This document shows positions 4,731 to 18,574 of a stretch of DNA of 35,136 nucleotides, piece after piece. The DNA lies in assembly GCA_025451375.1 (NCBI GenBank), contig JANWKL010000090.1, positions 1-35,136 of the forward strand. The letters run 5' to 3'. Source of the DNA: Steroidobacteraceae bacterium (lineage in GTDB: Bacteria > Pseudomonadota > Gammaproteobacteria > Steroidobacterales > Steroidobacteraceae). The translations under genes were made by a program, and so were the position numbers. Position 1 is the stretch's first letter. The number at the start of each line of letters is the position of its first letter. The notes below the pieces were generated by a model. The model made no database searches. It saw only the letters and a list, made by a program, of their open reading frames with translations, and was not told the origin of the DNA.

Positions 4731-5162
4731 ATGGCGCCCGTTCACCGACCCGCTGTTGCTATCGCCTTGGGGCTGCTGCTGGCAGGCTGCGCGACCTCTT
4801 CCCACGTGTTGGTGGGTACGGCGCGGGCCCCGATCTCCCCGGACCAGGTCAAGGTTTACCTGCAGCCGCCGCCGAGGTACGAAGAGATCGCCACCATCGA
4901 CGCCACCAGCCGTGGCTCGCTGACCATCACCAGCCAGCAGAACATGGACAAGGCGATCGCGCGTCTGAAGCAGGAGGCGGCGCGCCTGGGCGCCAACGGG
5001 ATCCTGCTGCAGGGGGTCGAGGATCAGCAGTCGGGCTCGATCGGCACGGGAGTCGGCAACTCGACGTTCAACGGCAACACCGCCATCGGCACCAGCCTCG
5101 GCGGTTCATTCGGAATCTACAACAAGGCGGCGAAGGGCCTGGCCATATACGTGGCCCCGTAG
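4731..5162 (+). CDS. Small outer-membrane-type lipoprotein, function unknown
   Basis: 143 residues. A signal peptide ends in the lipobox LLAGC (Cys about 22), so it should be lipidated. The residue after Cys is Ala, which does not signal inner-membrane retention. The mature part has a conserved-looking block, DKAIARLKQEAARLGANGILLQGV, resembling small lipoproteins that carry a GAN(G/A) motif, and then a Gly/Asn/Thr-rich tail. I do not recognise a function. It lies 14 nt after the methyltransferase and is probably cotranscribed. A double-hairpin element begins 8 nt after its stop. Confidence 0.8.
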   Translation: MAPVHRPAVAIALGLLLAGCATSSHVLVGTARAPISPDQVKVYLQPPPRYEEIATIDATSRGSLTITSQQNMDKAIARLKQEAARLGANGILLQGVEDQQSGSIGTGVGNSTFNGNTAIGTSLGGSFGIYNKAAKGLAIYVAP

Positions 5163-5170
5163 ACTATGTG

Positions 5171-5244
5171 GCGAAAATCGCAGGAAGCGATTTTCGCGGA
5201 CACTAGCTTCGTTTCCGCCGGCCAAAGGCGTGGCTTTGGCCGGC
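5171..5244 (+). repeat. Double-hairpin intergenic element, copy 1
   Basis: Two perfect palindromes. Hairpin A (5171-5197) has arms GCGAAAATCGC and GCGATTTTCGC around loop AGGAA. Hairpin B (5217-5244) has arms GCCGGCCAAAG and CTTTGGCCGGC around loop GCGTGG. A 19-nt spacer (5198-5216) separates them. The reverse complement of 16809-16883 has the same A-spacer-B layout, the same spacer length, 14 of 19 identical spacer bases and the same B loop. It sits between the convergent lipoprotein and DUF885 genes, 8 nt after the former's stop and 8 nt before the latter's. It could be a REP/REPIN-like repeat, a bidirectional terminator or a 3'-UTR structure. Confidence 0.85.
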
Positions 5245-5252
5245 TGCACTGG

Positions 5253-7283
5253 TCAGGGCTTCACCGACACGGGCAGCGCACTGGCCGCGCGCAGCTCCCG
5301 CAGCAGTTCGTCGCCGAAGTACCCCGCGGGAATCGTGCCCTGTTTCATGAACTCGAGGTGGAAGCGCTGCGGTGAGAAGCGCGCGCCGAGGGTCTGCTGC
5401 GCTCGCTTGCGCAGTGCGAGAATCTGCTCCTTGCCCAGACGATAGGTAATCGCCTGGGTGGGCCAGCGTGAATAGCGCGTGACCGCGCTGCGCGCGCCCT
5501 GACAGCTCGCCTGCTTGGCCTCCAACTTCACCGCCGCCGGGTCCTGGCACGAGCCGGGCAGGAAATCCACCACCTGCGAGAACAGCGTCACCGCATCCTC
5601 GAACGACAGGCGTCCGGTGTGGATGCCGATGTCGATTCGCACCCGCAGGTCCCGGTACAGCTTGCCGCGCAACTGATACAGGCGTTCCTCCGGGGTATAG
5701 AGGCCGTTCGGCGCCCCCGGCGCGGCTTCCGCGAGGAGCGCCTCCGAGTACAGCGCCCAGCCCTCCGCGGCCATCGAGTCCTCCCACATTGAGGAGGAAT
5801 CCTCCACGGCCCCGGGCGTTAGCCAGCGCACCGGTGAGATCTGCTCGCGGTAGTGGGTCATGACCTTGTAGTGCCAGTCGTGGCCGGGGAAGCCCTCGTG
5901 CCCGGCAAGATCGGGCATGGCGGCGTAGTTGTGCTCGGCACGCAGCTCCGCCGCGTCATCCCCGGTCGGCGTTACGTAAAAGCGGCCGACGCCGGTCGCC
6001 CTGAACGGCGGCGCCGGGTAATAGGCTGCACCCTCGATCGAGGCGCGCAGTGGCGGCGGCGTCACGGTGACGTCGAGCCGGTAGTCCGCCGGTACCTCGA
6101 ACAATCCCGAGTCCCGCCCGTAGGCCACCAGGCGCTGGCCGGTCTTGCGATACCCCTCCACCATTTCCGCATCGGTCCGCGGCGCGTTCTGGCTGAGCTG
6201 CGCGAATACCTCGCGCACCGCGTCCGCGCCGTCGGCGCCCGCCGGCCACTTGTGCGCGGCGGCAATCTGTTGCGCGAGCGTCGCCATCTGCGCCTGAGTG
6301 TTGGTCACGACCGGCCAGGAGGCGGCGAACAGCTCCGCCGCGGTGGCGGTGAGCCGCAGGTTGTTGCGCAGCGCCCAGTTGTATTCGGCTTCACCGAGTG
6401 CGAAATGATCGGCGCGGAACGCCGGCTTCAACACCGGGTTCTCCTCGCTCTCTCCATCCTCGAAGTAAGTTCGGGTGATGAACTCGCGCAGCTCGCGGTA
6501 GGCAAGCGCCGCATCGTCGCCCGCCGCCTGCAGATCGTGCAGCAGCGCTTCGCGCCTGGGAGAGCTGATATCGGTGGCAGCGATCTGCGGCAGGGTCTTG
6601 GCGAAGTAGTCAGCGTCGGCGGCGCTGCTTTGCAGCCCGTACTGACTGAGCACGCGCCAATCGGGCGTGTTGTGGGCGCGCACGCCGGCGCTGAGCTGCT
6701 TCTGCGCGGTGGCGAGAAAGGCCCGCACCGCCCGGGTACGCGCGATCACCGCCTGCCACTCAGCCTCGGTGCCATAGGTCGCAGGTCCGGTCGCCGTCAT
6801 GCCCTGGATCTGCCAGTCGACGCCGCGAAAGGGTTCGTCCACGTACGAGTCGAGCGAGCGTTCCTGGTAGCGACGCACCAGGTGCTGGTGCATGAGGAAG
6901 GCGATCTGCGCCAACGCCACCGAACGGTCGATGCGGCGGCGCGCCGAGAGCGACACCGGCGCGAGCGCGGAAAAGCGCGCGCGGAATTCCGCCAGGCGCG
7001 CGTCCTCCCGCACCAGCCCTGCGGGCGAATAGTCGCGCAGCGTGCCGTCAACACTCGCCAGCTGCGGATCGAAGGCGTCGCCCCCCAGATAGGTCGCGAC
7101 CACCGGGAAGCGGCGCAGGATATAGGTGACGTACTCGTGCTCGACCACGGCGAAGCGCGCGTCCGCCCGGTGCCGCACCGGCAGCGGCTGCGCGGTCGGC
7201 GGCGAGGCGGCCGCGTTCATGGCGCCAAGAAAAGCAACGCCGAGCGCGCACAGGCTGCGGGCAAATAAATAGCTGGGCTTCAC
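5253..7283 (-). CDS. Exported DUF885 family hydrolase (putative metallopeptidase)
   Basis: 676 residues from GTG 7283. That start is chosen because a signal peptide follows at once (KPSYLFARSLCALGVAFLG, then AAAS) and GAGGGA lies upstream. The frame is open to 7460, but the extra part is not family-like. The DUF885 signature is a zinc-peptidase-like GHEGFPGHDWHYK in the C-terminal third, followed by EGWALYSEALL. The length is usual for the family. The protein is probably periplasmic; members are predicted metal-dependent peptidases or carboxylases of uncharacterised substrate. It ends opposite the lipoprotein gene, across the double-hairpin element, and is divergent from the MoeB-like gene. 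Confidence 0.85.
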   Translation of the reverse strand: MKPSYLFARSLCALGVAFLGAMNAAASPPTAQPLPVRHRADARFAVVEHEYVTYILRRFPVVATYLGGDAFDPQLASVDGTLRDYSPAGLVREDARLAEFRARFSALAPVSLSARRRIDRSVALAQIAFLMHQHLVRRYQERSLDSYVDEPFRGVDWQIQGMTATGPATYGTEAEWQAVIARTRAVRAFLATAQKQLSAGVRAHNTPDWRVLSQYGLQSSAADADYFAKTLPQIAATDISSPRREALLHDLQAAGDDAALAYRELREFITRTYFEDGESEENPVLKPAFRADHFALGEAEYNWALRNNLRLTATAAELFAASWPVVTNTQAQMATLAQQIAAAHKWPAGADGADAVREVFAQLSQNAPRTDAEMVEGYRKTGQRLVAYGRDSGLFEVPADYRLDVTVTPPPLRASIEGAAYYPAPPFRATGVGRFYVTPTGDDAAELRAEHNYAAMPDLAGHEGFPGHDWHYKVMTHYREQISPVRWLTPGAVEDSSSMWEDSMAAEGWALYSEALLAEAAPGAPNGLYTPEERLYQLRGKLYRDLRVRIDIGIHTGRLSFEDAVTLFSQVVDFLPGSCQDPAAVKLEAKQASCQGARSAVTRYSRWPTQAITYRLGKEQILALRKRAQQTLGARFSPQRFHLEFMKQGTIPAGYFGDELLRELRAASALPVSVKP

Positions 7284-7464
7284 CTTCGATCCCTCACACC
7301 TGTCGCCGGCCGTTTCGGTTCGGCGCGCAGCATACGATGCCCGAGCACCCGTTGCGAAGCCCTGGAACGTGTAACCGTGTGTATCCGTTGACACCATCCA
7401 ACCGGCATCGGATGCTCGCTCGCATGGCGCATACACTGTGGATACCGCCTCGCGGGGCACGCGA

Positions 7465-8586
7465 GTGACCCTTTCGGCTGCGGAACGGGCCCGCTACCAC
7501 CGGCACCTCGCGCTCACCGAGATCGGCGCGGCCGGCCAGGAAAAACTCAAGGCCGCGCGCGTACTGATCATCGGCGCCGGCGGCCTGGGATCGCCCGCGG
7601 CGCTGTATCTGGCGGCGGCCGGATGTGGAACGCTGGGGCTCCTCGACTTCGATCGGGTGGATGTTTCCAACCTGCAACGTCAGGTGTTATTCGACACCCT
7701 CGCCGTCGCGAGACTCAAGGCCGAAGCGGGGCGTGAGCGACTCGCCGCCCTCAACCCCGAGATCCGCGTCAACGCCCACGCCCTGGAGTTGCAGGCCGCC
7801 AACGTGCGCGCCGTGTTCGCCGACTACGATGTCGTGATCGACGGCAGCGACCGGCTCTCGACCCGCTACCTGGTCAACGACGCCTGCGTGCTCTACGCCA
7901 AAGCGCTGGTGTCCGCGGCGATCCATCGCTTCGAGGGCCAGCTCATGACGTACGTGCCCGAGCGGGGGCCGTGCTATCGGTGTCTGTTTCCGGACGGTCG
8001 CGATGGCGTCGTCGCCAGCTGCGCCGAAGCCGGCGTCCTTGGGGTGCTGCCGGGCGTGCTGGGTACGCTGCAGGCTACGGAGGCCATCAAACTCATCACC
8101 GGCGTGGGTGAGCCGCTCCTCGGCAGACTCCTCACCTACGACGCGCTCGAGATGCGTTTCCAGGAGTTCCGCGTCAGCCGCCGGCGTGACTGTGCGGTGT
8201 GCGGCGATGCGCCCACCATCACCGCGCCGCGCGATCAGGATTCCGGGCCCGCGAGCGCTGCTCCCGGTGGCGTGCGGCGGCTGTCGGCGACGGACCTCAA
8301 AGCGCTGCTGCAAACGCAGACCCCGCTGCTCATCGATGTGCGTGAACCGTACGAATTCGCTGCCGGTCACCTCGAAGGCTCGCGCCATATTCCGCTGAAC
8401 CAGCTGCCACGGCGCCTTGCCGAGATCCCAAAAACCTCCGCTCCGGTGTTTATCTGCAGGAGCGGCGGGCGTTCACTGGCCGCCTGCTCGATGGCGCTGG
8501 AAGCGGGAATCACCTCGCCGGCGAACCTCGAGGGCGGGTTGCAGGGCTGGGCGCGCGAAGTGGATCCCACACTGGAAGTCGCCTGA
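7465..8586 (+). CDS. moeB: MoeB/ThiF-type adenylyltransferase fused to rhodanese domain
   Basis: E1-like enzyme that adenylates the C-terminal glycine of a sulfur-carrier protein (MoaD or ThiS type), with a sulfurtransferase domain at its C-terminus. 373 residues from GTG 7465. ATP-binding motif: LIIGAGGLGSPAALYL, then DFDRVDVSNLQRQVLF. Zinc-binding pairs are CYRC and CAVC. The likely catalytic Cys region is ASCAEAGVLG. The rhodanese domain (about 280-370) has LLIDVREPYEFAAGH and the active-site loop CRSGGRS. Start 7465 has GGGG 7 nt upstream and suits the usual family length. GTG 7438 is an in-frame alternative adding 9 residues but lacks a ribosome site. It is convergent with the LOG gene, 14 nt apart. 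MoeZ-like or ThiF-like roles cannot be told apart here. Confidence 0.88.
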   Translation: MTLSAAERARYHRHLALTEIGAAGQEKLKAARVLIIGAGGLGSPAALYLAAAGCGTLGLLDFDRVDVSNLQRQVLFDTLAVARLKAEAGRERLAALNPEIRVNAHALELQAANVRAVFADYDVVIDGSDRLSTRYLVNDACVLYAKALVSAAIHRFEGQLMTYVPERGPCYRCLFPDGRDGVVASCAEAGVLGVLPGVLGTLQATEAIKLITGVGEPLLGRLLTYDALEMRFQEFRVSRRRDCAVCGDAPTITAPRDQDSGPASAAPGGVRRLSATDLKALLQTQTPLLIDVREPYEFAAGHLEGSRHIPLNQLPRRLAEIPKTSAPVFICRSGGRSLAACSMALEAGITSPANLEGGLQGWAREVDPTLEVA

Positions 8587-8600
8587 AGCGCTGCAGTCCT

Positions 8601-9359
8601 TCAGGAGCGAGGATGGCAACGCGACTTGGCGAATCCCGGCTTCTGTGGCACCTGGCTGTCCAGCACGACACGCCGCTTGATCAGTTCCAGCGCCGCGCGC
8701 GGCTCGTCGACAAACTCGAATAGCTTCAGGTCCTCAGCGGCTATGGTGCCGTGGCGCACCAGCGCCTCGAAGTTGATGACTTCCTTCCAGTACGCGGAAC
8801 CGTAGAGGAACACCGGGATCGAACGATCGATCTTGCGCGTCTGGGCGAGGGTCAGAATCTCGAACAGCTCATCGAAGGTGCCAAAGCCTCCGGGAAAGGC
8901 GATGAGCGCGCGCGCCAGGTGCGCGAACCACAGCTTGCGCATGAAAAAGTAGTGGAACTCGAAGGACAGTCCCGGAGTGATGTAAGGGTTGGGACGCTGT
9001 TCGTGGGGCAGACCTATATTGAGCCCGACGGTGCGGCCGCCGGCGAGTGCGGCGCCTTTGTTGGCGGCCTCCATGATGCCGGGGCCGCCGCCCGAGCAGA
9101 CCACCAGCCGCTCTCCGGGAAGCGTCGCACTCCATTCGGTCACCAGCCGCGCAAGCTCCACCGCGTCGTCCACATAGCGCCCGAGCGGCCCGTCGGCACG
9201 CAGGCGCGCGGACCCGAAAAACACCGCGGTGGCCGTGACGCCGCAGTCGCTGAAGGCGCGCAGTGGCGCCAGATACTCCGAGACGATGCGCACCGGGCGC
9301 CCCTCATCGGAGTCGATGAACTTCGGATCGTGATAGGCCAGTGGGGGTGTGTCGCTCAT
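8601..9359 (-). CDS. LOG family protein (nucleotide 5'-monophosphate phosphoribohydrolase-like)
   Basis: 252 residues, TIGR00730-like LOG fold. The diagnostic motifs are both present: CSGGGPGIMEAANKGA and the catalytic PGGFGTFDE, with a Rossmann-like opening TAVFFGSARL. Such enzymes cleave the N-glycosidic bond of nucleoside monophosphates; cytokinin-activating members belong here, and older annotations as lysine decarboxylase are wrong. The natural substrate is unknown. The start ATG 9359 has no Shine-Dalgarno, but a TAGAGT box lies 6 nt upstream. It is divergent from the PIG-L deacetylase gene. Confidence 0.88.
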   Translation of the reverse strand: MSDTPPLAYHDPKFIDSDEGRPVRIVSEYLAPLRAFSDCGVTATAVFFGSARLRADGPLGRYVDDAVELARLVTEWSATLPGERLVVCSGGGPGIMEAANKGAALAGGRTVGLNIGLPHEQRPNPYITPGLSFEFHYFFMRKLWFAHLARALIAFPGGFGTFDELFEILTLAQTRKIDRSIPVFLYGSAYWKEVINFEALVRHGTIAAEDLKLFEFVDEPRAALELIKRRVVLDSQVPQKPGFAKSRCHPRS

Positions 9360-9365
9360 TCGCGC

Positions 9366-9371
9366 ACTCTA
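9366..9371 (-). promoter_or_regulatory. -10-like box (TAGAGT) 6 nt before LOG start
   Basis: On the minus strand TAGAGT ends 6 nt before ATG 9359. This is the -10 to start distance expected for a leaderless mRNA. No convincing -35 is seen. Confidence 0.35.
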
Positions 9372-9393
9372 ACGAATTCCCCTGCCCGCATGC

Positions 9394-9399
9394 GACACT
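9394..9399 (+). promoter_or_regulatory. Extended -10 box (TGcGACACT) before the PIG-L gene
   Basis: GACACT preceded by TGc, with 7 nt to GTG 9407. The arrangement nearly matches the TGcGACAAT box of the nitroreductase gene. It supports GTG 9407 as a leaderless start rather than ATG 9422. Confidence 0.38.
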
Positions 9400-9406
9400 G
9401 CATTTT

Positions 9407-10342
9407 GTGCACGCCCGAAAGATGACCGCGCGGCGAGCGGCGCTGGCGACCGCCCCGCTGGCACTCCTCGCCGCCCTCGCCACGGGTAACGTGACGGCTG
9501 CCGCCGGGCCTGTGATGACCGGCGGCATGCAGGACCTGCCGCCGCTTGGCGCCACTACGTCACTCCTGGTCGTGGCGCCGCATCCGGACGATGAGACCCT
9601 GTGCTGCGCCGGCATCATCCAGCGGGTGGTGCGCGCCGGCGGGCGGGTGAGCATCGTGTGGATCACCAGCGGCGATGCCTCCGAGCTCGACATGCTGCTC
9701 ATCGAACACCGTCTGTTCGCGCCCGCGAAGGCGCGCGAGCTTGGCGCGCGGCGCATGCGCGAGGCCCGGGCGGCGGCAACACTCCTCGGCGTGCCCACGG
9801 CGCGCCAGCTGTTCATGGGCTTCCCTGACCGCGGCGTCTTGCGGATCCTCAATCTCGATCGGACCAGCCGGTACACCTCCGGATTCACCGACGCTGCGGC
9901 GGTGCCCTATTCCGACGCCGTGTTTCCGGGTCATCCCTACACGCGCGATGGTCTTGAGCAGGACTTTGAACAGGTGCTGGCGCGCGTGGCGCCCACACTC
10001 ATCCTCGCGCCGACGCCGCGCGATGCGCACCCGGACCATCGGGCGGCGGGGCTGCTGGCGACCGCGGCCCTGGCGCGCAGCGCCGGGAGCGGCGCGCAGC
10101 TGCGCTACTGGATCGTGCACGGCGGTGAAGGATGGCCGAGTCCGCGCGGGCTCGAACCCGGTCTGCCGTTAACTGCGGCGCCGCGCATCCGCGGCGTGAC
10201 GCCCGCGGTTTTCACGCTCACCACCGCGGAGGAGGATGGCAAGCTTGCGGCGCTGCGCGCCTACGACACGCAGCTGCGTGGACTTAAGCCGTTTCTGCTC
10301 GCCTTCGTCCGCAGCACCGAGTTGTTCGCTGCGGAACCCTGA
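9407..10342 (+). CDS. Exported PIG-L/LmbE family deacetylase
   Basis: 311 residues with an N-terminal signal peptide (MTARRAALATAPLALLAALA, then ending near TAAAG). The zinc-binding LmbE motif APHPDDETLCCAG is followed later by the third ligand in DAHPDHRAAG. The family removes acetyl groups from N-acetylglucosaminyl or related substrates, here outside the cytoplasm; the true substrate is unknown. GTG 9407 is used because a -10-like box lies 7 nt before it. ATG 9422, five codons later, is equally in frame and leaves the signal peptide intact. It is convergent with the PLD-family gene, 17 nt apart. Confidence 0.85.
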   Translation: MHARKMTARRAALATAPLALLAALATGNVTAAAGPVMTGGMQDLPPLGATTSLLVVAPHPDDETLCCAGIIQRVVRAGGRVSIVWITSGDASELDMLLIEHRLFAPAKARELGARRMREARAAATLLGVPTARQLFMGFPDRGVLRILNLDRTSRYTSGFTDAAAVPYSDAVFPGHPYTRDGLEQDFEQVLARVAPTLILAPTPRDAHPDHRAAGLLATAALARSAGSGAQLRYWIVHGGEGWPSPRGLEPGLPLTAAPRIRGVTPAVFTLTTAEEDGKLAALRAYDTQLRGLKPFLLAFVRSTELFAAEP

Positions 10343-10359
10343 TCCATGGGCCGGCGGGG

Positions 10360-11496
10360 CTAAGGCTCCCGCCAGCGGTCGAGCCAGCGATCCAACGCGC
10401 CAGCGATGCTCTCGCGCAAACGATCGAGCCGCGCGCGCTCCCGCCAGTAGCGACGACTCAACTCAATCGAGACGGCAAAGTCCCCGGTAAACAACTCCGC
10501 CGCCGCGTCGCTCGCGCGCCGGTCGTCGATTTCCTGGTTGGCTTCCAGATTCCAGCGGAACGACCAGCGGTCAAGATTGCTGGAACCGATCGACACCCAC
10601 TCATCGCAGAGGATCATTTTCGCGTGCAGCATGCGCGGCTGGTACTCGAAAATCCGCACGCCGTTGCGCAGCAGCTTGCCGTAGAAGCGGCGCGCCGCCT
10701 GGCGCACCCACGGGTGATCGGTGCGCGGACCGGGGACCAGCAGGCGGACATCGACACCGCGGCGTGCCGAGCGCCGTAACGCCTTGCGAAAGCGACGCGA
10801 TGGCACGAAGTAGGCGCTCATCACCCAGGCACGCGCCGTTGCGACCTCCAGGCGCCGCACGACGTCGTTGGCAAGCAGTGAGCGGGGTCGCGCCTCGCTC
10901 AACGCGACCCGGCCGGCGGCCCCGTCAGGAAGCGGCACCGCCGTGGGCGGCTCGAGCGCGAGTTCATCCCCGCAGCGGCGCCAGGTTGAAGCAAAGGCCC
11001 GCTGCCAGTCCGCGACCACCGGGCCGGCAATTTGCACCATGATCTCGCGCCACGGCGGCTCACCAGCGATGCCGGCCGCGAACTCATCCGTAAGGCCCGC
11101 CCCGCCGACGAAGGCAAGACTCCCGTCGATGAGCAGCAGCTTGCGATGATCACGCCGCAGGTTCAGCAGTCGATTGCGCAAATCCAGTGGATTGAAGAAT
11201 CGCAGCTCGACGCCGGCGGCGCGCAGGCGGCCGCGATCCGCGCGCTTCAGTCCCAGCGCGCCGAAACCATCAAACACTGCGCACACCCGCACACCGCGCG
11301 ACCGGGCCAGCACCAGGGACTCGATGAAGCGCGTCGTGATCGTGCTGGAAGTAACGAGATAGAACTCCAGCAGCACATAGGCGCGCGCGCCGTAAATCGC
11401 CTCCAGCATGCGCGCAAAGAACAGCGCGCCGTCATCCAGGAACTGGAATTCGTTACCTGGTCGCCATGGCCACGCGCTGGCGGTGAGGTGCTGCAC
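10360..11496 (-). CDS. Cardiolipin synthase-like phospholipase D family protein
   Basis: 378 residues, two HKD motifs: HRKLLLID in the first half and HAKMILCDEWVSIGSSN in the second. FQFLDDGALFFARMLEAI near the N-terminus is typical of ClsB-type cardiolipin synthases that lack N-terminal membrane spans. The enzyme should transfer phosphatidyl groups at the inner membrane. It starts at GTG 11496, with AAGG 9 nt upstream. The tail after the second HKD (SRRYWRERARLDRLRESIAG) is basic and amphipathic. A nuclease role is possible within the superfamily but less likely given this architecture. Confidence 0.87.
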   Translation of the reverse strand: MQHLTASAWPWRPGNEFQFLDDGALFFARMLEAIYGARAYVLLEFYLVTSSTITTRFIESLVLARSRGVRVCAVFDGFGALGLKRADRGRLRAAGVELRFFNPLDLRNRLLNLRRDHRKLLLIDGSLAFVGGAGLTDEFAAGIAGEPPWREIMVQIAGPVVADWQRAFASTWRRCGDELALEPPTAVPLPDGAAGRVALSEARPRSLLANDVVRRLEVATARAWVMSAYFVPSRRFRKALRRSARRGVDVRLLVPGPRTDHPWVRQAARRFYGKLLRNGVRIFEYQPRMLHAKMILCDEWVSIGSSNLDRWSFRWNLEANQEIDDRRASDAAAELFTGDFAVSIELSRRYWRERARLDRLRESIAGALDRWLDRWREP

Positions 11497-11530
11497 GCGA
11501 GTGAGCCTTGCGTAAAGTCAGGAAGCAAGT

Positions 11531-11559
11531 CTGACACGCCGCAATCAAATCCGTAAGAT
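11531..11559 (+). promoter_or_regulatory. Sigma70-type promoter of the DUF4337 gene
   Basis: CTGACA (11531-11536) and TAAGAT (11554-11559) with exactly 17 nt between them. Transcription would begin near 11566, giving a leader of about 29 nt that contains GGGGAGAGGG before ATG 11595. Confidence 0.6.
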
Positions 11560-11594
11560 CATGCGACACCGCCACGGTATGCGGGGAGAGGGCC

Positions 11595-12122
11595 ATGGCC
11601 GAGATCGAAATACACGCAGGACCTGGGCATGAGATCGACGAGTTCGGACGCGGCGTGGGGGTCACGGTCGGAGTGCTCGGCGTGTTGCTGGCCGTGGTGA
11701 CGATCAGCGCGCACCGCGCACACACCGCCGCGGTCATCTCGCGCACCGAGGCTAACGACCAGTGGGCTTTCTACGCGGCGAAGAAAGAGCGCGAACACCT
11801 GGTGGATGTCGGTGCGCAGCTTGCCGCGGCGCTGAGCAACGACCCGCCGCGCGTGCAGCCCCTGATCGAGAAATTCCGCGCCGACCAGCAACGGTACTTG
11901 CGCGAGGCGCAGGAGATCCAGAACGAAGCCCGCGCCAGGGAGTCGGAAACCCAGCGCCAGGAGCACCGCGGACTACGGCTCGACATGAGCGAGGGATTCC
12001 TCGAGCTGGGCCTGGTGTTGTCATCGTTGTATTTTCTCGCCAAGCGCCGCTTCTTTCCGGCCTTCGGCGTGTGCGCCGGCGCGTTCGGCATCGCGCTTGC
12101 GGCCTGGGGGTTTTTCACCTGA
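11595..12122 (+). CDS. DUF4337 family membrane protein
   Basis: 175 residues. A transmembrane segment lies at about 22-38 (VGVTVGVLGVLLAVVTIS). A long charged, probably helical region follows (about 50-125, rich in Glu, Arg and Gln). Two further hydrophobic segments lie near the C-terminus (FLELGLVLSSLYFLA and the closing FGVCAGAFGIALAAWGFF). This layout and the HRAHTAAVISRTEANDQWAFYAAKK block match DUF4337; no function is known. It has a strong Shine-Dalgarno (GGGGAGAGGG) just before ATG. The last 8 bp overlap the end of the DUF4184 gene on the other strand. Confidence 0.8.
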   Translation: MAEIEIHAGPGHEIDEFGRGVGVTVGVLGVLLAVVTISAHRAHTAAVISRTEANDQWAFYAAKKEREHLVDVGAQLAAALSNDPPRVQPLIEKFRADQQRYLREAQEIQNEARARESETQRQEHRGLRLDMSEGFLELGLVLSSLYFLAKRRFFPAFGVCAGAFGIALAAWGFFT

Positions 12123-12885
12123 CGGTCGTGTCGCCGCCGTGCTCCAGTGTCAGCACCGCGCCCGCCACCATGTACATCGCAGCGAACCAGGCGAGGCCGT
12201 GAGTGAAGAAGGTTTCAAGTGCCCCGTAAACCGACAGAGCGTGCTCCAGCGAGCCGGTCGCCTGCACCGCGCCGATGAGTGTCGCCGCGGCGGCGCACAG
12301 GAGCAGGACCGGCCCTGCGCGGGGACGCCCGCTGCGCGCCTGCAGCGGCAAGGGATCCGGAACCGGCAGGCGCCAGTACCACACCGTGAGTACCGCCAGC
12401 CCCGCCACGGAACTCAAGTACTGGAGCACGCGGTTAACCGTGATCTCGTATGCGCCAACGGCGAAGGTCGCGTGCAATGGCGCGTAGTGTCGCACCATCC
12501 AGCCGTTGCCATGCGTGAAGGAATCCCAAAGCAGATGGGACCAGGCGCCGATGAGGATCGAGAACGGCGCGAGCAGCCACTCCACCGGGCGCCTGCCGAA
12601 CGGGCCGATCGCCGTCATGAACAGCCAGCGCGCCCGCGGACTCATGAGCGCCGTCAGGGGCGCGCGCAACAGGTAGCAGCCGCCGATGATGGCGAGGCAC
12701 AGCGGCACACACACCCGCCAGGAGGCGGCAAGGTTGTGGGTATCTGGAAACCAGGTACGCACGCTCCACGGCAGGTAGTGCGAGAAATCCGGTGCCATGG
12801 CACCCAACACCAGCGGCACGGTTCGTAACGGCTTCAGACGCCGGATTGGCAGGATCGCGGCCGGATGGGACAGCGTGAACGGCAC
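12115..12885 (-). CDS. DUF4184 family membrane protein
   Basis: 256 residues. The start PFTLSHPAAILPI and the segment LVLGAMAPDFSHYL are the DUF4184 signature. Several hydrophobic segments suggest an integral inner-membrane protein of about five or six spans, with conserved HLLWDSFTHGNGW inside. His and Asp residues in MAPDFSH and WDSFTH resemble metal-dependent YdjM-type membrane hydrolases, which is inference. It starts with GTG 12885, 10 nt after the glucoamylase stop, so it is the third gene of the ROK kinase-GH15 operon. A link to glucan metabolism is suggested only by position. Confidence 0.78.
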   Translation of the reverse strand: MPFTLSHPAAILPIRRLKPLRTVPLVLGAMAPDFSHYLPWSVRTWFPDTHNLAASWRVCVPLCLAIIGGCYLLRAPLTALMSPRARWLFMTAIGPFGRRPVEWLLAPFSILIGAWSHLLWDSFTHGNGWMVRHYAPLHATFAVGAYEITVNRVLQYLSSVAGLAVLTVWYWRLPVPDPLPLQARSGRPRAGPVLLLCAAAATLIGAVQATGSLEHALSVYGALETFFTHGLAWFAAMYMVAGAVLTLEHGGDTTVR

Positions 12886-12895
12886 GCGGCTCTCG

Positions 12896-15247
12896 TCAAC
12901 CCGCCGCGCGTGTCACGCGGATGCTGTAGTCCTTGCCCGCCCAGGCACTGCCGCGCCGGAACGTCAGATCGATGCGCCGCCCGGCATGCAGGCTCGCAGT
13001 GTCGAGCGTGACGACGTGCAACCCGAGTGAGTTCGCGGCGGTGTCCTGGTCGCGCACGTCCTGCCAGCCATCAACTCCCCAGTGCACCGAGCCTGGTGCG
13101 CGCAAGGCCACCGTGAGCGCGCATCCTTGCGGCAGTTCGCCCACCGGGGCGTGCTCGCACCACATCACCCGCTTGAGCGCCGGCCGTTCGCCTCGGTAGC
13201 GCTCCCACACCGCCGTCGGTCGGTCGAACGGGCGCTTCAGCCCGCGGGAAACAACCAGTTTCAGATACTCCGCGTGCGCCCATGCCAGGGGCATCGCGGA
13301 TCCGGTCGGCTTGCCCGGCTCGAGGCCGCGCGCCGCGATGGGCGGCGCATCCCAGATCTGCTCCGGCAACATGCCGCCGGGGGAAGCCATGCGGGCCATG
13401 GCGGCAATAAGCGGCAAAGGATCGCGGCCGGCGGCGATTTCGTAGTGGCCACGCTCACCCGTCAACAGCGGCCAGGGGCGCCCCCGACCGGTGCCGTCGT
13501 AGGCGCTGCCGTCATCATGCTCACCGTAACCGTCGTCGTTGTAGCGATGCCAGCACGGTCCCGCGGGCGTGTCGACCTTCAGGAGGGCATCCGCCACACG
13601 CACGGTGGCGACGATCAGCGGATCATCCGCGCGGCGCAGCCCGCAGCGCACGAGCTGCAGAAAATCCACTCCCACCTGCTCGGCGGCGCCCAGATTCGGA
13701 TCGTGGGCGAGGTTCTTGATCGCCAGCACACCGCACTTCGCGGCACGGTCGGTGATGGCCTGCGGCGGCGCGACGCGTACGTAGTAGCCCGGCACACCCA
13801 CGCGGCGAGCCAGCGCAGTGTCCGTGACACAAGTCCAGTCTTCGAGGCGCGCGTTCCAGTAGTCCGCGAACGCGAGTGCCAGCTCACGGCCGTCGGCGGG
13901 CAGGTAGCGGGCACCCGCGACCAGCGCCGCGATACACACCGCGAGGGTGAAGGTGTTGAGCCCCGCGTCCTCCTCCCAGCGGTCCTGATCGCTCACCGGT
14001 CCGGTGCGCACGAGAAACGCCAGCGCCCGCCGCACCATGTCCGTGACCTCGGTGCCATCCAGAGCATTGCGCTCTTCGAGCGCGGCGGCGAGCAACACCG
14101 GGAAGGCGGCTTCATCCAGCTGAATGCCAGACCAGTAACCGGCGCCGCCCAGCCATTGATTCTGGTGCCAGTGACCATCCGCGTTCTGCGTCGACAGAAG
14201 ATAACGCAGCGTGTTGCATGCCTCGCGCGTCGCGCCAACGGCGAGCAGCGCGCCGGCGCATTCAACCAGGTCCCGTGGCCATACCAGGTGATAACCCTCG
14301 CGCTCTTCGTGCGTGTTGCCCCAAGGAACGCTCAAGGAGGCGACCATGGCGCCCGGGTAGATCTTGTCGCGGTGCGCGCGCAGCACCATGGCGGAAATGC
14401 GCAACTGCTCGGCACATGCATCCGGCAAGTCCGCCGGCAGGTTGGTTTCGGGCTCGAGGTTGGCGTGCCAGTGGGTCCAGGCGGTCAGCTGCCGCTCCCA
14501 TGAGCTCTCGAACGGCTCACACAACGCGGTCAGGGCCAGCGTCGCCGCTGATTCGGCACTGCTGCCAAAGCCGAGTGCCATGACAGCCTGGCGGGGCAGT
14601 TCGCCAACGAGCGCCACGTTGCCGGGCCCGGCCTCGTCGTATTCCCAGGTCAGGGCGCCGTGTTGTGCGAAATCCTGCCAGGCATCGCTGTGGCCGCAAA
14701 CTCCGGCGCTCGCGCGGCCCCAGGCATCCAGCTGTTCGCCGGTCACGGCGGCGAGCGCGAGCCCGTAGGGGCCAGCTTCAGCCCACAGGAGCTTGCGATT
14801 GCGATGCTGCACGACCTGGGCGCGATTGTTAAGCCCGGAGCCGCCCAGGTGTGGCGCGAGCAAGGCATACGGGCGCAAGCCCGGCTCGCCGGTCAGGCTC
14901 ACTTCGATCAGGAGCACGTCGCGGTCCTCGCACGGTGTCACCCGCAGCGCGAGCTCAAAGCGCTCGTGCCGGTGCACGATGTGCACCGCCGGCGCTCCGG
15001 GCGCGCCGAGTTTCACCACGTGCTTCCACAGGCGCTTCACTTCCACCCAGAAGCCCGCGCCGTCCGCGACGATGAAGCCCAAGTCGCGGATCTGCGGCAG
15101 GTCGACGCGCGGGTAATACACCTCGTTGAGAATGCCGCCGCCGATGGTGAACCACAGCCGCGAGGAACCGAGCGAGCAGCCCACCATTTCCTTGGCGCTG
15201 CTGCTCCAGGTCGGACTGAGCCCGGGGGCCCCCGGCGCCGCGCCCAC
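12896..15247 (-). CDS. GH15 glucoamylase (glucan 1,4-alpha-glucosidase)
   Basis: 783 residues. It releases glucose from alpha-1,4-glucans or dextrins. The N-terminal beta-sandwich (about 1-260) begins APGAPGLSPTWSSSAKEMVG, typical of bacterial GH15. The catalytic (alpha/alpha)6 domain follows, with YHLVWPRDLVE (about 319-329), the general acid in DRWEEDAGLNTFT (about 420-432) and PEQIWD (about 627-632). GTG 15247 is chosen because the family starts here and it lies 5 nt after the kinase stop. The frame is open to 15478, but that stretch lies over the kinase gene. No signal peptide is visible, so it probably acts on intracellular glycogen or maltodextrin. Glucose made here could go straight to the neighbouring kinase. 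Confidence 0.92.
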   Translation of the reverse strand: MGAAPGAPGLSPTWSSSAKEMVGCSLGSSRLWFTIGGGILNEVYYPRVDLPQIRDLGFIVADGAGFWVEVKRLWKHVVKLGAPGAPAVHIVHRHERFELALRVTPCEDRDVLLIEVSLTGEPGLRPYALLAPHLGGSGLNNRAQVVQHRNRKLLWAEAGPYGLALAAVTGEQLDAWGRASAGVCGHSDAWQDFAQHGALTWEYDEAGPGNVALVGELPRQAVMALGFGSSAESAATLALTALCEPFESSWERQLTAWTHWHANLEPETNLPADLPDACAEQLRISAMVLRAHRDKIYPGAMVASLSVPWGNTHEEREGYHLVWPRDLVECAGALLAVGATREACNTLRYLLSTQNADGHWHQNQWLGGAGYWSGIQLDEAAFPVLLAAALEERNALDGTEVTDMVRRALAFLVRTGPVSDQDRWEEDAGLNTFTLAVCIAALVAGARYLPADGRELALAFADYWNARLEDWTCVTDTALARRVGVPGYYVRVAPPQAITDRAAKCGVLAIKNLAHDPNLGAAEQVGVDFLQLVRCGLRRADDPLIVATVRVADALLKVDTPAGPCWHRYNDDGYGEHDDGSAYDGTGRGRPWPLLTGERGHYEIAAGRDPLPLIAAMARMASPGGMLPEQIWDAPPIAARGLEPGKPTGSAMPLAWAHAEYLKLVVSRGLKRPFDRPTAVWERYRGERPALKRVMWCEHAPVGELPQGCALTVALRAPGSVHWGVDGWQDVRDQDTAANSLGLHVVTLDTASLHAGRRIDLTFRRGSAWAGKDYSIRVTRAAG

Positions 15248-15252
15248 AGTTT

Positions 15253-15966
15253 TCAGCCGCTGCGCCGGCGGCGCGTACGCTGCGCGCTCGGCCCGAGACC
15301 GGAGAAGCCGCCGCGCCACAGACGCAGTCCACCCGTTATGGCGTACTTGTTGTCGCCCAGGCGGGTTTGCGGCGGCAGGCGTTTCATGCGTACCGCGTTG
15401 CCGCCACCGAGCACGACGTAGTCGGCTTCGAAAGCCGCCTGCAGGTGCGCGATGACGTCGATCACGGACTTGCGCCATTTCTTGTTGCCGCGGCGTTCGC
15501 GGCCGCGCTCACCCACGTAATCCTCGTACGAGCGCCCGTGCCTGTAGGGCAGATGGCCAAGCTCCGTGGCCTCTACCTCGCCGTCGACAATGAGTGCGAC
15601 GCCGAGGCCGGTGCCGAGCCCGAGAAACAGCATGCGTCCGCCTGAGTAACTGCCGATGGCCTGCATGGCGGCGTCGTTCACGATCCGCACCGGCTTGCCG
15701 AGGGCCTTGGCGAAATCAAAGCCCACCCAGCGGCCACCAAGGTTATGGGGCTCGGCGGCGATCCGGCCCCGCAGCACCGGCCCCGGATAGCCCATCGAGA
15801 CCGCATCGTAGGGGGTGCCCCGGGTGAGCTTGCGGATGGCGCGCACCAGGTAAGCCGGCCCCATCCTGGGTCCGGAGGGGAATTTCCAGGCCTTGCCGCG
15901 GGCATCGATCCGCAACTTGACGTGCGTGCCGCCGACGTCGATCACGAGGATGCGCTGTGGAGTCAT
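15253..15966 (-). CDS. ppgK: ROK family glucokinase, probably polyphosphate-dependent
   Basis: 237 residues. The phosphate-binding motif ILVIDVGGTHVKLR opens the protein. SMGYPGPV, IVNDAAMQAIG (catalytic Asp), MLFLGLGTGLGVALI, ELGHLPY and YVVLGGGNA follow in the order of the PPGK subfamily of ROK kinases. The zinc-binding Cys cluster of repressor-type ROK proteins is absent, and so is a DNA-binding domain. The protein should phosphorylate glucose using polyphosphate and/or ATP; donor choice cannot be read from sequence. The start is ATG 15966 with GGGAGAG upstream. It leads an operon with the glucoamylase, which fits glucose as substrate. Confidence 0.82.
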   Translation of the reverse strand: MTPQRILVIDVGGTHVKLRIDARGKAWKFPSGPRMGPAYLVRAIRKLTRGTPYDAVSMGYPGPVLRGRIAAEPHNLGGRWVGFDFAKALGKPVRIVNDAAMQAIGSYSGGRMLFLGLGTGLGVALIVDGEVEATELGHLPYRHGRSYEDYVGERGRERRGNKKWRKSVIDVIAHLQAAFEADYVVLGGGNAVRMKRLPPQTRLGDNKYAITGGLRLWRGGFSGLGPSAQRTRRRRSG

Positions 15967-16066
15967 TGCCTGATTCTCTCCCGGAAACCGTGTGCTTGAC
16001 CACCGCCATCTCGTCGTGGCGTGCGAACGGTCCGCCGCAACGCGGCTGTGCGCGTGTTGTTCGTCG

Positions 16067-16072
16067 TATAAA
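16067..16072 (+). promoter_or_regulatory. -10 box (TATAAA) 8 nt before the repeat lipoprotein start
   Basis: TATAAA with 8 nt to ATG 16081, the same geometry as at 4127-4141. The mRNA would have almost no leader. No Shine-Dalgarno and no good -35 are seen. Confidence 0.45.
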
Positions 16073-16080
16073 CTGAGCAG

Positions 16081-16803
16081 ATGAATCACCGACATGTTCT
16101 TCTGGTCACGTTCGCCCTGGTCCTGTGTGGCTGCACCGGCGCGGACTTCAATGGCGGCAGCAGCTCTGCCAAGTCCTCATCAGATGGGTCGCCGCGCGCG
16201 CGCCACGCGGACGGCGACACCTCGCAGGTGATGGGCTCCGTCGACATCGGCGCGGGTGAACACGCCGGGGACGTCTCTACGGTCAATGGGGGCATTCACA
16301 TCGGCGAGAATGCCGTGGTCGGCAAGGTCGAAACCGTCAACGGCGGCATCACAGTTGAACCACATGCCACCGCCAGCGAGGTCGAAACCGTCAACGGCGG
16401 CATTAAAGTCGGGGACGGTGCCGGTATCAGCGGCACCGTGCAGACCGTCAACGGCTCGTTGTCGATTGCCGATGGCGCCGACGTGAAAGGCGAATTGACC
16501 AACGTCAACGGCTCGATCGGAGTTGCGGCCGCGCACGTCGGCGGTGATGTCAGTACCGTAAACGGCGACATCCGCATCGGCCCGAACGCGCATGTCGACG
16601 GCGGAATCCATGTGGAAAAGAACGGCAGTTGGTTCCACCTGGGCTCCGGCATCCCGAAAATCGTGATCGCGCCGGGCTCGGTCGTGAAGGGCACGCTCAG
16701 ATTCGACCGCGAGGTGCATCTGTACGTGAGTGACCACGCCACCATCGGCGCGGTGGTAGGCGCCACGATCAATAAGTTCTCGGGAGATGCGCCAACGGGC
16801 TGA
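16081..16803 (+). CDS. Repeat lipoprotein with bactofilin-like beta-helix units
   Basis: 240 residues. The signal peptide ends in the lipobox VLCGC (Cys about 18). A low-complexity Ser/Gly/Asp linker follows, then about six tandem units of 18 residues centred on TVNG(G/S/D)I, such as STVNGGIHIGENAVV and ETVNGGITVEPHATA. The units also show as DNA repeats: a 23-bp stretch at 16327-16349 recurs at 16381-16403. The spacing and Val/Ile pattern fit a right-handed beta-helix like bactofilins. The last part (IVIAPGSVVKGTLRF) keeps the same rhythm. Probably anchored in the envelope; function unknown. It is convergent with fhs across double-hairpin copy 2. Confidence 0.82.
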   Translation: MNHRHVLLVTFALVLCGCTGADFNGGSSSAKSSSDGSPRARHADGDTSQVMGSVDIGAGEHAGDVSTVNGGIHIGENAVVGKVETVNGGITVEPHATASEVETVNGGIKVGDGAGISGTVQTVNGSLSIADGADVKGELTNVNGSIGVAAAHVGGDVSTVNGDIRIGPNAHVDGGIHVEKNGSWFHLGSGIPKIVIAPGSVVKGTLRFDREVHLYVSDHATIGAVVGATINKFSGDAPTG

Positions 16804-16808
16804 GGGCA

Positions 16809-16883
16809 GGCGGCAAAACCCACGCGTTTTGCCGCCGTAAACGCAGTTGATGTCCGGCAAAATCGCCGCCCGGCGATTTTGCC
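16809..16883 (-). repeat. Double-hairpin intergenic element, copy 2
   Basis: Read on the minus strand, hairpin A (16883-16856) has arms GGCAAAATCGC and GCGATTTTGCC. Hairpin B (16836-16809) has arms GGCGGCAAAAC and GTTTTGCCGCC around loop GCGTGG, and the 19-nt spacer is 16837-16855. Against copy 1, every arm difference is paired with a matching change in the opposite arm: two base pairs in A and three in B. The B loop is identical and 14 of 19 spacer bases agree. Hairpin A begins 8 nt after the fhs stop, the same offset as in copy 1. Confidence 0.85.
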
Positions 16884-16891
16884 CAAGCAAA

Positions 16892-18574
16892 TCAGAACAG
16901 GCCGGTGATCCGGCCGTTGTCGTCCACGTCGATGCTGTTGGCGGCAGGTACCTTGGGCAGGCCCGGCATGGTCATGATGTCACCGCACACCATGATCACG
17001 AATTCCGCGCCGGCAGCGAGGCGCACCTCGCGGATGTTCACCACATGATGCGCCGGCGCACCCCGCAGCTTCGGATCGGTTGAGAACGAGTACTGCGTCT
17101 TGGCGACGCACACCGGGTAGTGTCCATAACCACCCTCCTGCAGAGCGCGGATCTGCGCGCGCACGCGGGTGTCGGCGGTGATATCGGTGGCATGGTAGAT
17201 CTGAGTCGCCACCGTTTTCATCTTCTCCCACAGCGGCAGGTCGTCGCTATACAGGTAGCGAAACTCGTTCGGCCCGGCCGCCAGCCGCACTACCTCGCGG
17301 GCGACTTCGAGCGCGCCCTTGCCGCCATCCGCAAAGTGCGTGGCTGCAATGACGCGCACACCGTGGGGGGCGATGCGATCGATCAGCAGCTGGATTTCAC
17401 GCTCGGTATCTTCGGCGCGGCGGTTGATGGCGACCACGCACGGCAGGCCGAAGCGGTTGTGGACGTTGTCGATGTGGCGCTCGAGGTTGACCACGCCCTT
17501 GTCGAGGGCCGCAAGGTTCTCCTTGCCGAGCTCTGCGAGCTCGATACCGCCCTGGTATTTCAGCGCCCGCACGGTGGCCACGATCACCGCCGCGCAGGGA
17601 CGTAAGCCCGCCTTGCGACACTTGATGTCGACGAATTTCTCCGCCCCGAGGTCGGCGCCAAAGCCCGCCTCCGTCACGACGTAGTCGGCGAGCTTCAACG
17701 CCGTGCGGGTAGCGATCGCTGAATTGCAGCCGTGCGCGATGTTGGCGAACGGGCCGCCGTGGATGAAAGCCGGATTGTTCTCGAGGGTCTGCACCAGGTT
17801 CGGCGCCAGCGCGCCTTTCAGCAGCGCCGCCATGGCACCGTGGGCCTTCAGATCGCTCGCCAACACCGGGGTGTTGTCGGCACGATAACCGACCACGATG
17901 CGACCCAGGCGCTCGCGCAGATCGCGCAGGCTGCTGGCGAGGCACAGGATCGCCATGACCTCTGATGCCACCACAATGTCAAAGCCGTCCTCGCGCGGTA
18001 CGCCGTTGCCACTGCCGCCGAGTCCGACGACGATCTCGCGCAGCGCCCGATCGTTGACGTCCATCACGCGCCGCCAGGTGATGCGGCGCACATCGAGCCC
18101 CAGCTGGTTGCCCTGGTGGATGTGGTTGTCGATGAGCGCCGCCAGCAGATTGTTGGCAAGCCCAATGGCGGCGAAGTCACCGGTGAAATGCAGGTTGATG
18201 TCTTCCATCGGCACGACCTGCGAGTAGCCGCCGCCGGCGGCGCCGCCCTTCATGCCAAATACCGGCCCGAGCGCCGGTTCGCGTAAACAGACGATGGCCC
18301 GATGTCCCAGGCTGTTCAGGGCATCCCCGAGACCCACGGTCATGGTCGTCTTGCCCTCGCCGGCCGGCGTCGGCGAAACGGCCGTGACCAGCACCAGCTT
18401 GCCGCTGGGTCGCGCGTCCAGCTGCGCGACATAGTCGAGCGATACCTTCGCCTTGTAGTGACCGAAAGGCTCCAGCGCGGCGAGCGGGATACCCAGGCGT
18501 GCCTGGGCCAGCTCCGCGATGGGGAGCATCCTGGCCCGCTGGGCGATGTCGATGTTGGAGGGGGTAGGAGCCAT
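16892..18574 (-). CDS. fhs: Formate-tetrahydrofolate ligase
   Basis: 560 residues, full length for the family. It makes 10-formyltetrahydrofolate from formate, ATP and tetrahydrofolate in the cytosol. The P-loop is [20 protein letters not shown] (about 64-83). Other family blocks are [26 protein letters not shown] (split here for length: [11 protein letters not shown] and LHFTGDF), [13 protein letters not shown] and [12 protein letters not shown]. It starts at ATG 18574, divergent from hemJ with 72 nt between starts. It supplies or drains the one-carbon pool. No odd residues were noticed. Confidence 0.96.

Follow-up and report, generated by a model that had tools for sequence, protein, structure and literature searches.

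A REP-like double-hairpin repeat at gene 3' ends in a Steroidobacteraceae bacterium, with probable IS200/IS605-type ends

The window analysed in this study is a 35,136-nt stretch of DNA (contig JANWKL010000090.1, positions 1 to 35,136) from the genome of a Steroidobacteraceae bacterium (assembly GCA_025451375.1). It contains two copies of a short element composed of two hairpins (A and B) separated by a spacer, and convergent gene pairs flank both copies alike. These are probably copies of a non-autonomous mobile element that resembles repetitive extragenic palindromic (REP) sequences, carries ends of the IS200/IS605 type, uses a CTAG-like target and is moved in trans. The two sites are organized as follows:

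4806-5162, plus strand: gene 5' of copy 1 (start at 4731 in another gene listing)
5160-5162, plus strand: TAG stop of the gene 4806-5162, at the left border of copy 1
5171-5197, plus strand: copy 1, hairpin A (11-bp stem, loop AGGAA)
5198-5216, plus strand: copy 1, spacer of 19 nt
5217-5244, plus strand: short-form hairpin B of copy 1 (11-bp stem, loop GCGTGG), not followed by the right end GTGTTAACAC
5253-5255, minus strand: stop of the convergent DUF885 gene (5253-7460), 8 nt beyond hairpin B of copy 1
16801-16803, plus strand: stop codon, 5 nt beyond hairpin B of copy 2, that ends the convergent gene 16081-16803
16836-16809, minus strand: short-form hairpin B of copy 2 (loop GCGTGG), not followed by the right end GTGTTAACAC
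16855-16837, minus strand: copy 2, spacer of 19 nt
16883-16856, minus strand: copy 2, hairpin A
16892-16894, minus strand: TGA stop at the left border of copy 2; it ends the gene for formate-tetrahydrofolate ligase (16892-18574)

An earlier, sequence-only reading of the window had described two double-hairpin copies with one layout at these positions, and this description was borne out. All 22 base pairs are kept in both copies; five pairs differ between them (two in A and three in B), every change being matched in the opposite arm, and the spacers are identical at 14 of 19 positions. The predicted folding energy of each copy is better than that of 200 out of 200 shuffled sequences (z -5.5 for copy 1 and -3.8 for copy 2). 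Both are short forms of the element, which lack its right end.

The hairpin A pattern (with up to 2 mismatches) matched 12 places in the window's own genome (G000; 2.66 Mb in 173 contigs, 93% complete). Five of these, none of them within the window, were aligned (alignment A6) and used to build the covariance model R1, which recovered the held-out window copies with 90.9 bits (copy 1, E 3.5e-25) and 78.0 bits (copy 2, E 2e-21); the earlier claim that chance does not easily explain their likeness therefore holds. At least 86 matches of 33 bits or more were counted by hand from the table for G000, with 150 of 1241 candidates scored, and some of the weakest may belong to related families. The family was found to be restricted to the genus: at E<=0.001, 23 of the 60 genomes searched gave a match, namely G000 and 22 of the 36 other members of the genus, while 14 members showed none and neither did any of the 23 genomes from outside the genus, which also speaks against chance. 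In this multi-genome search (up to 77 candidates scored per genome) the highest counts were at least 77 in G027, 76 in G000, 61 in G028, 54 in G033, 38 in G002, 29 in G021 and 26 in G032. A 24-letter pattern of the element, compared with a collection of 84,980 species (which may omit records of the window's genome or close ones), matched 24 stretches, all in two metagenome-assembled genomes, Gammaproteobacteria bacterium palsa_1201 and palsa_1213. There was no match to a 111-base query around copy 1 in the phage and plasmid collections. The further copies that the sequence-only reading had called for, in the genome and in its relatives, are thus numerous. The copy set of G000 used below comprises the top 80 by rank of the 104 matches that were 56 nt or longer after removal of duplicates; some of the weakest (L143, L146, L147 and L152) resemble related families.

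The element starts at a CTRR border, followed by TCCATTGG, hairpin A, the 19-nt spacer, hairpin B and TGCGG, and in some copies it extends to a right end, GTGTTAACACGCC-CTAR, about 28 nt past hairpin B, or to its variant GTCCGACAGGCTGCTAG in others. In G000, 11 of the 12 matches to the right-end pattern adjoin an R1 match. The stems of A and B are unlike and stand in a direct, fixed order, not inverted. Nor does TCCATTGG at the left match the reverse complement of GTGTTAACACGCC at the right, so the element has no terminal inverted repeats. The stem feet are TTGG-like at A and TTCC at B, with no GTAG there. The GGCAAAA/TTTTGCC motif, to which attention had been drawn earlier, is indeed present, but it is confined to some copies and does not characterize the family as a whole.

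Pairing of both stems is strongly maintained. Among 78 matches (77 distinct) from G000 and its relatives, standard pairs occupied 98.8% of 1641 cells, compared with 85.4% after shuffling and 32.5 to 55.9% after sliding. Changes on both sides occurred at 18 of the 22 pairs (197 cells), and 0 of 500 shuffles equalled the pairing or change values. Since the model itself aligned its better matches, intact stems are favoured in this set, and the cells represent sequences, not events. The compensation of arm changes noted in the two window copies is found in the further copies too. For a fixed 11-bp arm of hairpin A the 80 copies gave 88.8% Watson-Crick pairs versus 98.4% in the model-aligned set, a gap to which shorter stems in some copies and the selection of good matches both contribute. 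Two further signals were set aside. The scarcity of G-U pairs (6 of 1641 cells) was dropped as an indication of a DNA-level constraint, since a tRNA control of only 35 pairs contained none. The columns of A are statistically associated with those of B (z up to 7.7), but subfamilies confound this signal.

In 20 of the 80 copies (the long form), hairpin B is enlarged by an insert of about 65 nt whose core is conserved. The copy L083:5667-5819 and 32 others (alignment A8, in which 33 of 37 were used and L161, L162, L002 and L163 left out) share an inner domain, GGCTCGATGC...CACCTCAGCAGCCGAGCACTTC, within the long-form hairpin B. This domain could be a structured RNA. The best Rfam results for the long form of L083 were E 0.69 and 1.4, below gathering, and the window itself had no Rfam match at the gathering score.

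The left border of the element often coincides with a stop codon. Genes were called with a crude open reading frame caller based on codon usage and trained on five window genes with Pfam hits. In G000, 41 of the 80 copies have the upstream gene's stop between -4 and +3 relative to the model start (31 exactly at +1); a gene reads towards the element in 52 copies, and these include all 41. The same was true of 17 of 24 copies in G027 (27 matches, less three shorter than 56 nt), or 17 of the 21 with a gene reading towards the element, and of 9 of 19 copies in G002 (18 listed matches and one more, out of at least 38). Random placement in gaps beside a gene 3' end would put about 3% at a stop. TAG is favoured at these borders: the 41 stops of G000 are TAG in 26 cases, TGA in 10 and TAA in 5, while 559 background stops (window and 603 kb of G027) comprise 126 TAG, 343 TGA and 90 TAA (p 2e-8). 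The corresponding figures for G027 are 11 TAG, 4 TAA and 2 TGA (p 2e-4). In 38 copies no called stop stands at the border, and the commonest tetramers there are CTAG and CTGG, with 7 each; the right-end CTAG doubles as the stop of the convergent gene in L028, L105 and L151. CTAG is scarce: it occurs 164 times in 638 kb (window and L222-L261), and the scarcity is strong in coding sequence, where about 559 kb contain 53. The gaps occupied are enriched in convergent ones (25 of 72 copies versus 72 of 548 gene pairs), and any shortage of copies in divergent gaps (6 of 72) falls short of significance (p 0.09).

Orthologous sites were compared in G027, the nearest relative judged by its ligase protein (90% identity), of which 603 kb (out of about 3.2 Mb) gave 22 of the 80 junctions. 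The element is missing from 14 of them (rows 3, 6, 9, 13, 18, 23, 29, 34, 41, 49, 53, 59, 75 and 76), including both window sites (rows 9 and 18). It is also present in G027 at rows 12, 45, 52, 69, 72 and 73 (at 45 in the opposite orientation), and two junctions are ambiguous (row 1, with N letters, and row 30, with a possible remnant). The ligase junction is empty in both G027 and G005, and in G010 it holds an oppositely oriented element; past the DUF885 gene of G017 there is an element in the other orientation next to a different neighbour gene. The TAG-AATCC that stands 3' of the element in L026 is the sequence of the empty site, and most of the empty sites seen contain YTRR. These sequence comparisons favour recent insertion within the G000 line over inheritance from a common ancestor, with loss elsewhere being possible. 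Dispersed in many copies, confined to one genus, located at gene 3' ends and missing from orthologous sites, the family has the properties of the REP/REPIN-like mobile repeat that the sequence-only reading had proposed; that proposal is supported as regards mobility and REP likeness, and the transposase sought with it was not found (see below). A particular arrangement was seen in L120:1426-1578, where the element directly follows a GC hairpin and T tract resembling an intrinsic terminator; the relative (L246) has an element of opposite orientation at the same place.

The very stable stems directly after stops, the enrichment of convergent gaps and the conserved inner domain of the long form could also be read as signs of a 3'-end RNA element (a terminator or mRNA stabiliser) kept by selection and not chiefly mobile DNA. 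We consider this very improbable, given that the hairpins have neither a T tract nor a terminator-like site (a terminator scan placed none on the hairpins of either window copy, and two weak sites near copy 2 fall outside the element), that sites are empty in the relative, that either orientation is found at one gene end and that 15 of the 72 copies lie, reverse-oriented, between two minus genes. The suggestion of a conserved structured RNA, made from the window alone, has lost ground to the Rfam comparison, the terminator scan and the empty sites, and is least unlikely for the long form. Some influence of the element on mRNA 3' ends is possible.

A second reading takes the CTAR-like tetramers present at both borders, and once in the empty site, in L026, L035 and L105 as a duplicated 4-bp target (YTAR/CTAG). 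The element would then be a miniature inverted-repeat transposable element derived from an ordinary DDE insertion sequence, and the hairpins would be internal. This reading is quite improbable, as terminal inverted repeats are absent, the border tetramers are often unequal (e.g. CTGG/CTAA in L153) and 19 rve loci were without element ends, a search that covered rve, other DDE families not being searched.

Evidence of another kind came from an insertion sequence (IS) of the same genus, the L074-type IS of about 660 bp (query positions 294-956), which starts with CTAG-TCCAATAGG-AGA-hairpin and ends with hairpin-ATGGTTAC. Its left end occurs in nine copies in eight genomes, after unrelated upstream DNA, with CTAG at the border in 6 cases and CTAA, TTAG and CGAG in 1 each. 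The 143-residue protein is identified as an IS200/IS605 transposase by 147 bits against a cut-off of 55; with the REP-transposase model its 45 bits do not reach the cut-off of 80. The border consensus of 79 copies of the element, CTAGTCCATTGGC, is identical at 10 of 13 positions to the left end of this IS, CTAG followed by TCCAATAGG; this likeness is reached by 6 of 70,246 window 13-mers, among which may be the window's own copies. In a second IS200 type the left border is TTTAG in 3 of 4 copies and TTTAA in 1. The IS200/IS605 enzymes recognise subterminal hairpins, and their cut sites are set by the bases 5' of each hairpin (PMC8266576). The right end of one subfamily, AGTCCGACAGGCTGCTAG, recurs exactly over 18 nt at L073:1244-1261 in G024, a genome with no R1 matches; this copy has no element attached and lies about 240 nt upstream of an IS200 gene. 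Together with the L074-type left-end likeness, it favours an IS200/IS605-like explanation over a RAYT-like one. Given a YTRR left target, hairpins near both ends and no inverted repeats, mobilisation in trans by an enzyme of the IS200/IS605 type would be the simplest account.

Another reading is a REP/REPIN family proper, moved by a REP-associated tyrosine transposase (RAYT) that cuts at CT and has since been lost from these genomes. The first reading had recommended a search for the RAYT gene; PF01797 had no match in G000. CT does occur at both borders of the element, and cutting at CT near the hairpin, either 5' or 3' of it, is recorded for TnpA-REP (PMC8266576); GTAG REP ends often give a TAG stop, and loss of REPtrons is on record (PMC3733652). 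We nevertheless regard this origin as unlikely, since GTAG is absent from the stem foot and exact in the spacer of 13 of the 65 copies scored, the two stems are unlike and not inverted, and the four Y1 proteins of the genus that were tested all score as IS200/IS605 transposases, under the REP-transposase cut-off.

The CT at both borders, the lack of inverted repeats and the inner domain would also suit an IS110-like RNA-guided element with a CT core, in which the long-form insert is part of a guide RNA. This is extremely improbable: PF02371 has no match in G000, G028 or G033, it does match in G001 and G030, which are without copies, and 11 IS110 loci lack the element ends.

Several observations weigh against an IS200/IS605-type origin. 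PF01797 (Y1) has no match in G000 (93% complete) or in the six other genomes with most copies, at least 26 each (G002, G021, G027, G028, G032 and G033), and the L074-type IS was not found in these seven either, the match in G028 lying only outside the IS. PF01797 is present in 10 of the 36 other genus members, namely G003 (7 copies), G036 (21 copies) and eight without copies, so that 21 of the 23 genomes with copies lack it. The right end of the IS is unlike that of the element, and most copies, those of the window included, have no right end; the left-end likeness was spotted by eye and with a short pattern alone. The element consensus gave no match in 40 transposase loci (115 kb; 10 Y1, 4 of them from outside the genus, 11 IS110 and 19 rve). 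Many copies carry unequal tetramers at their two borders, and therefore neither a target duplication nor its lack is proven. Finally, TGA has become TAG at 3 of 5 element sites versus 3 of 11 control genes, which fits an element that brings TAG as well as one that lands on it. The weak points are thus the missing enzyme and the unmatched right end.

In the IS200/IS605-type scheme that we favour, a single-strand (HUH, Y1) transposase acting in trans would fold one DNA strand, recognise the hairpins and join the element 3' of a YTRR target, preferably CTAG. Insertions inside genes would be purged, while those at a stop would keep a stop and be tolerated. Because CTAG is scarce in the genes of this GC-rich genome and stop-keeping insertions are tolerated, the placement at stop codons may arise with no need for a dedicated stop sensor; the stems would stay paired because only foldable copies can be moved. 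A bolder and unlikely version is a mini-element that homes to stop codons, in which a borrowed IS200/IS605 transposase joins the double-hairpin DNA after CT/YT and supplies or keeps the amber AG, the long-form insert perhaps being a recognition or guide RNA. If this were true, every insertion would fall at a gene end and leave the protein intact.

Among the known systems, the non-autonomous derivatives of IS200/IS605 (palindrome-associated elements) lack terminal inverted repeats, as the present family does, and like it have hairpins close to both ends and keep a short target 5' of the left end (CTAG/CTRR here, CTAG in most copies of the genus IS); in addition, the left border of the family resembles that of an IS which also follows CTAG. 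They differ in that here the transposase is absent from the copy-rich genomes, the right end and stems are unlike those of the genus IS and the copy number is far higher. The GTAG REPs and REPINs are likewise short palindromes scattered between genes in many copies, close to gene 3' ends; they often provide a TAG stop, and their sites vary from species to species (PMC3733652). In our element, by contrast, the stem carries no GTAG, the two stems are unlike and follow each other directly in fixed order, the right end is defined (CTAR), an insert form exists and no RAYT was found. CGTC-tagged REPs also have no known dedicated transposase (PMC3733652), and there is a weak likeness in that hairpin A, read on the opposite strand, follows TGTCC and ends in CCA-like bases; the stems of the element are 11 bp instead of 8-9, with no tag directly at the stem and a fixed pair of unlike stems. 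The stop overlap and the missing enzyme already have precedents; no account of the present combination of features was found among the open-licence papers searched. What is added here is a possible link, through left end and target, between an IS200/IS605 IS and a REP-like family of the same genus. Families of this kind are mostly attributed to RAYTs or have had no enzyme assigned to them, and the link provides a testable case for the origin and spread of REP-like repeats without a dedicated transposase. The coincidence with stops, counted in three genomes against background, would also explain simply why REP-like repeats accumulate at gene 3' ends: they would insert at a motif resembling a stop and leave a stop in place.

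Related composite repeats were noted at L146:1506-1595, L147:1517-1605, L152:1506-1594 and L162:1426-1577. They combine a different left hairpin (e.g. GAAATGGCC-TGC-GGCCATTTC) and a different spacer with the same kind of hairpin B, which suggests that several modular families exist in the genus.

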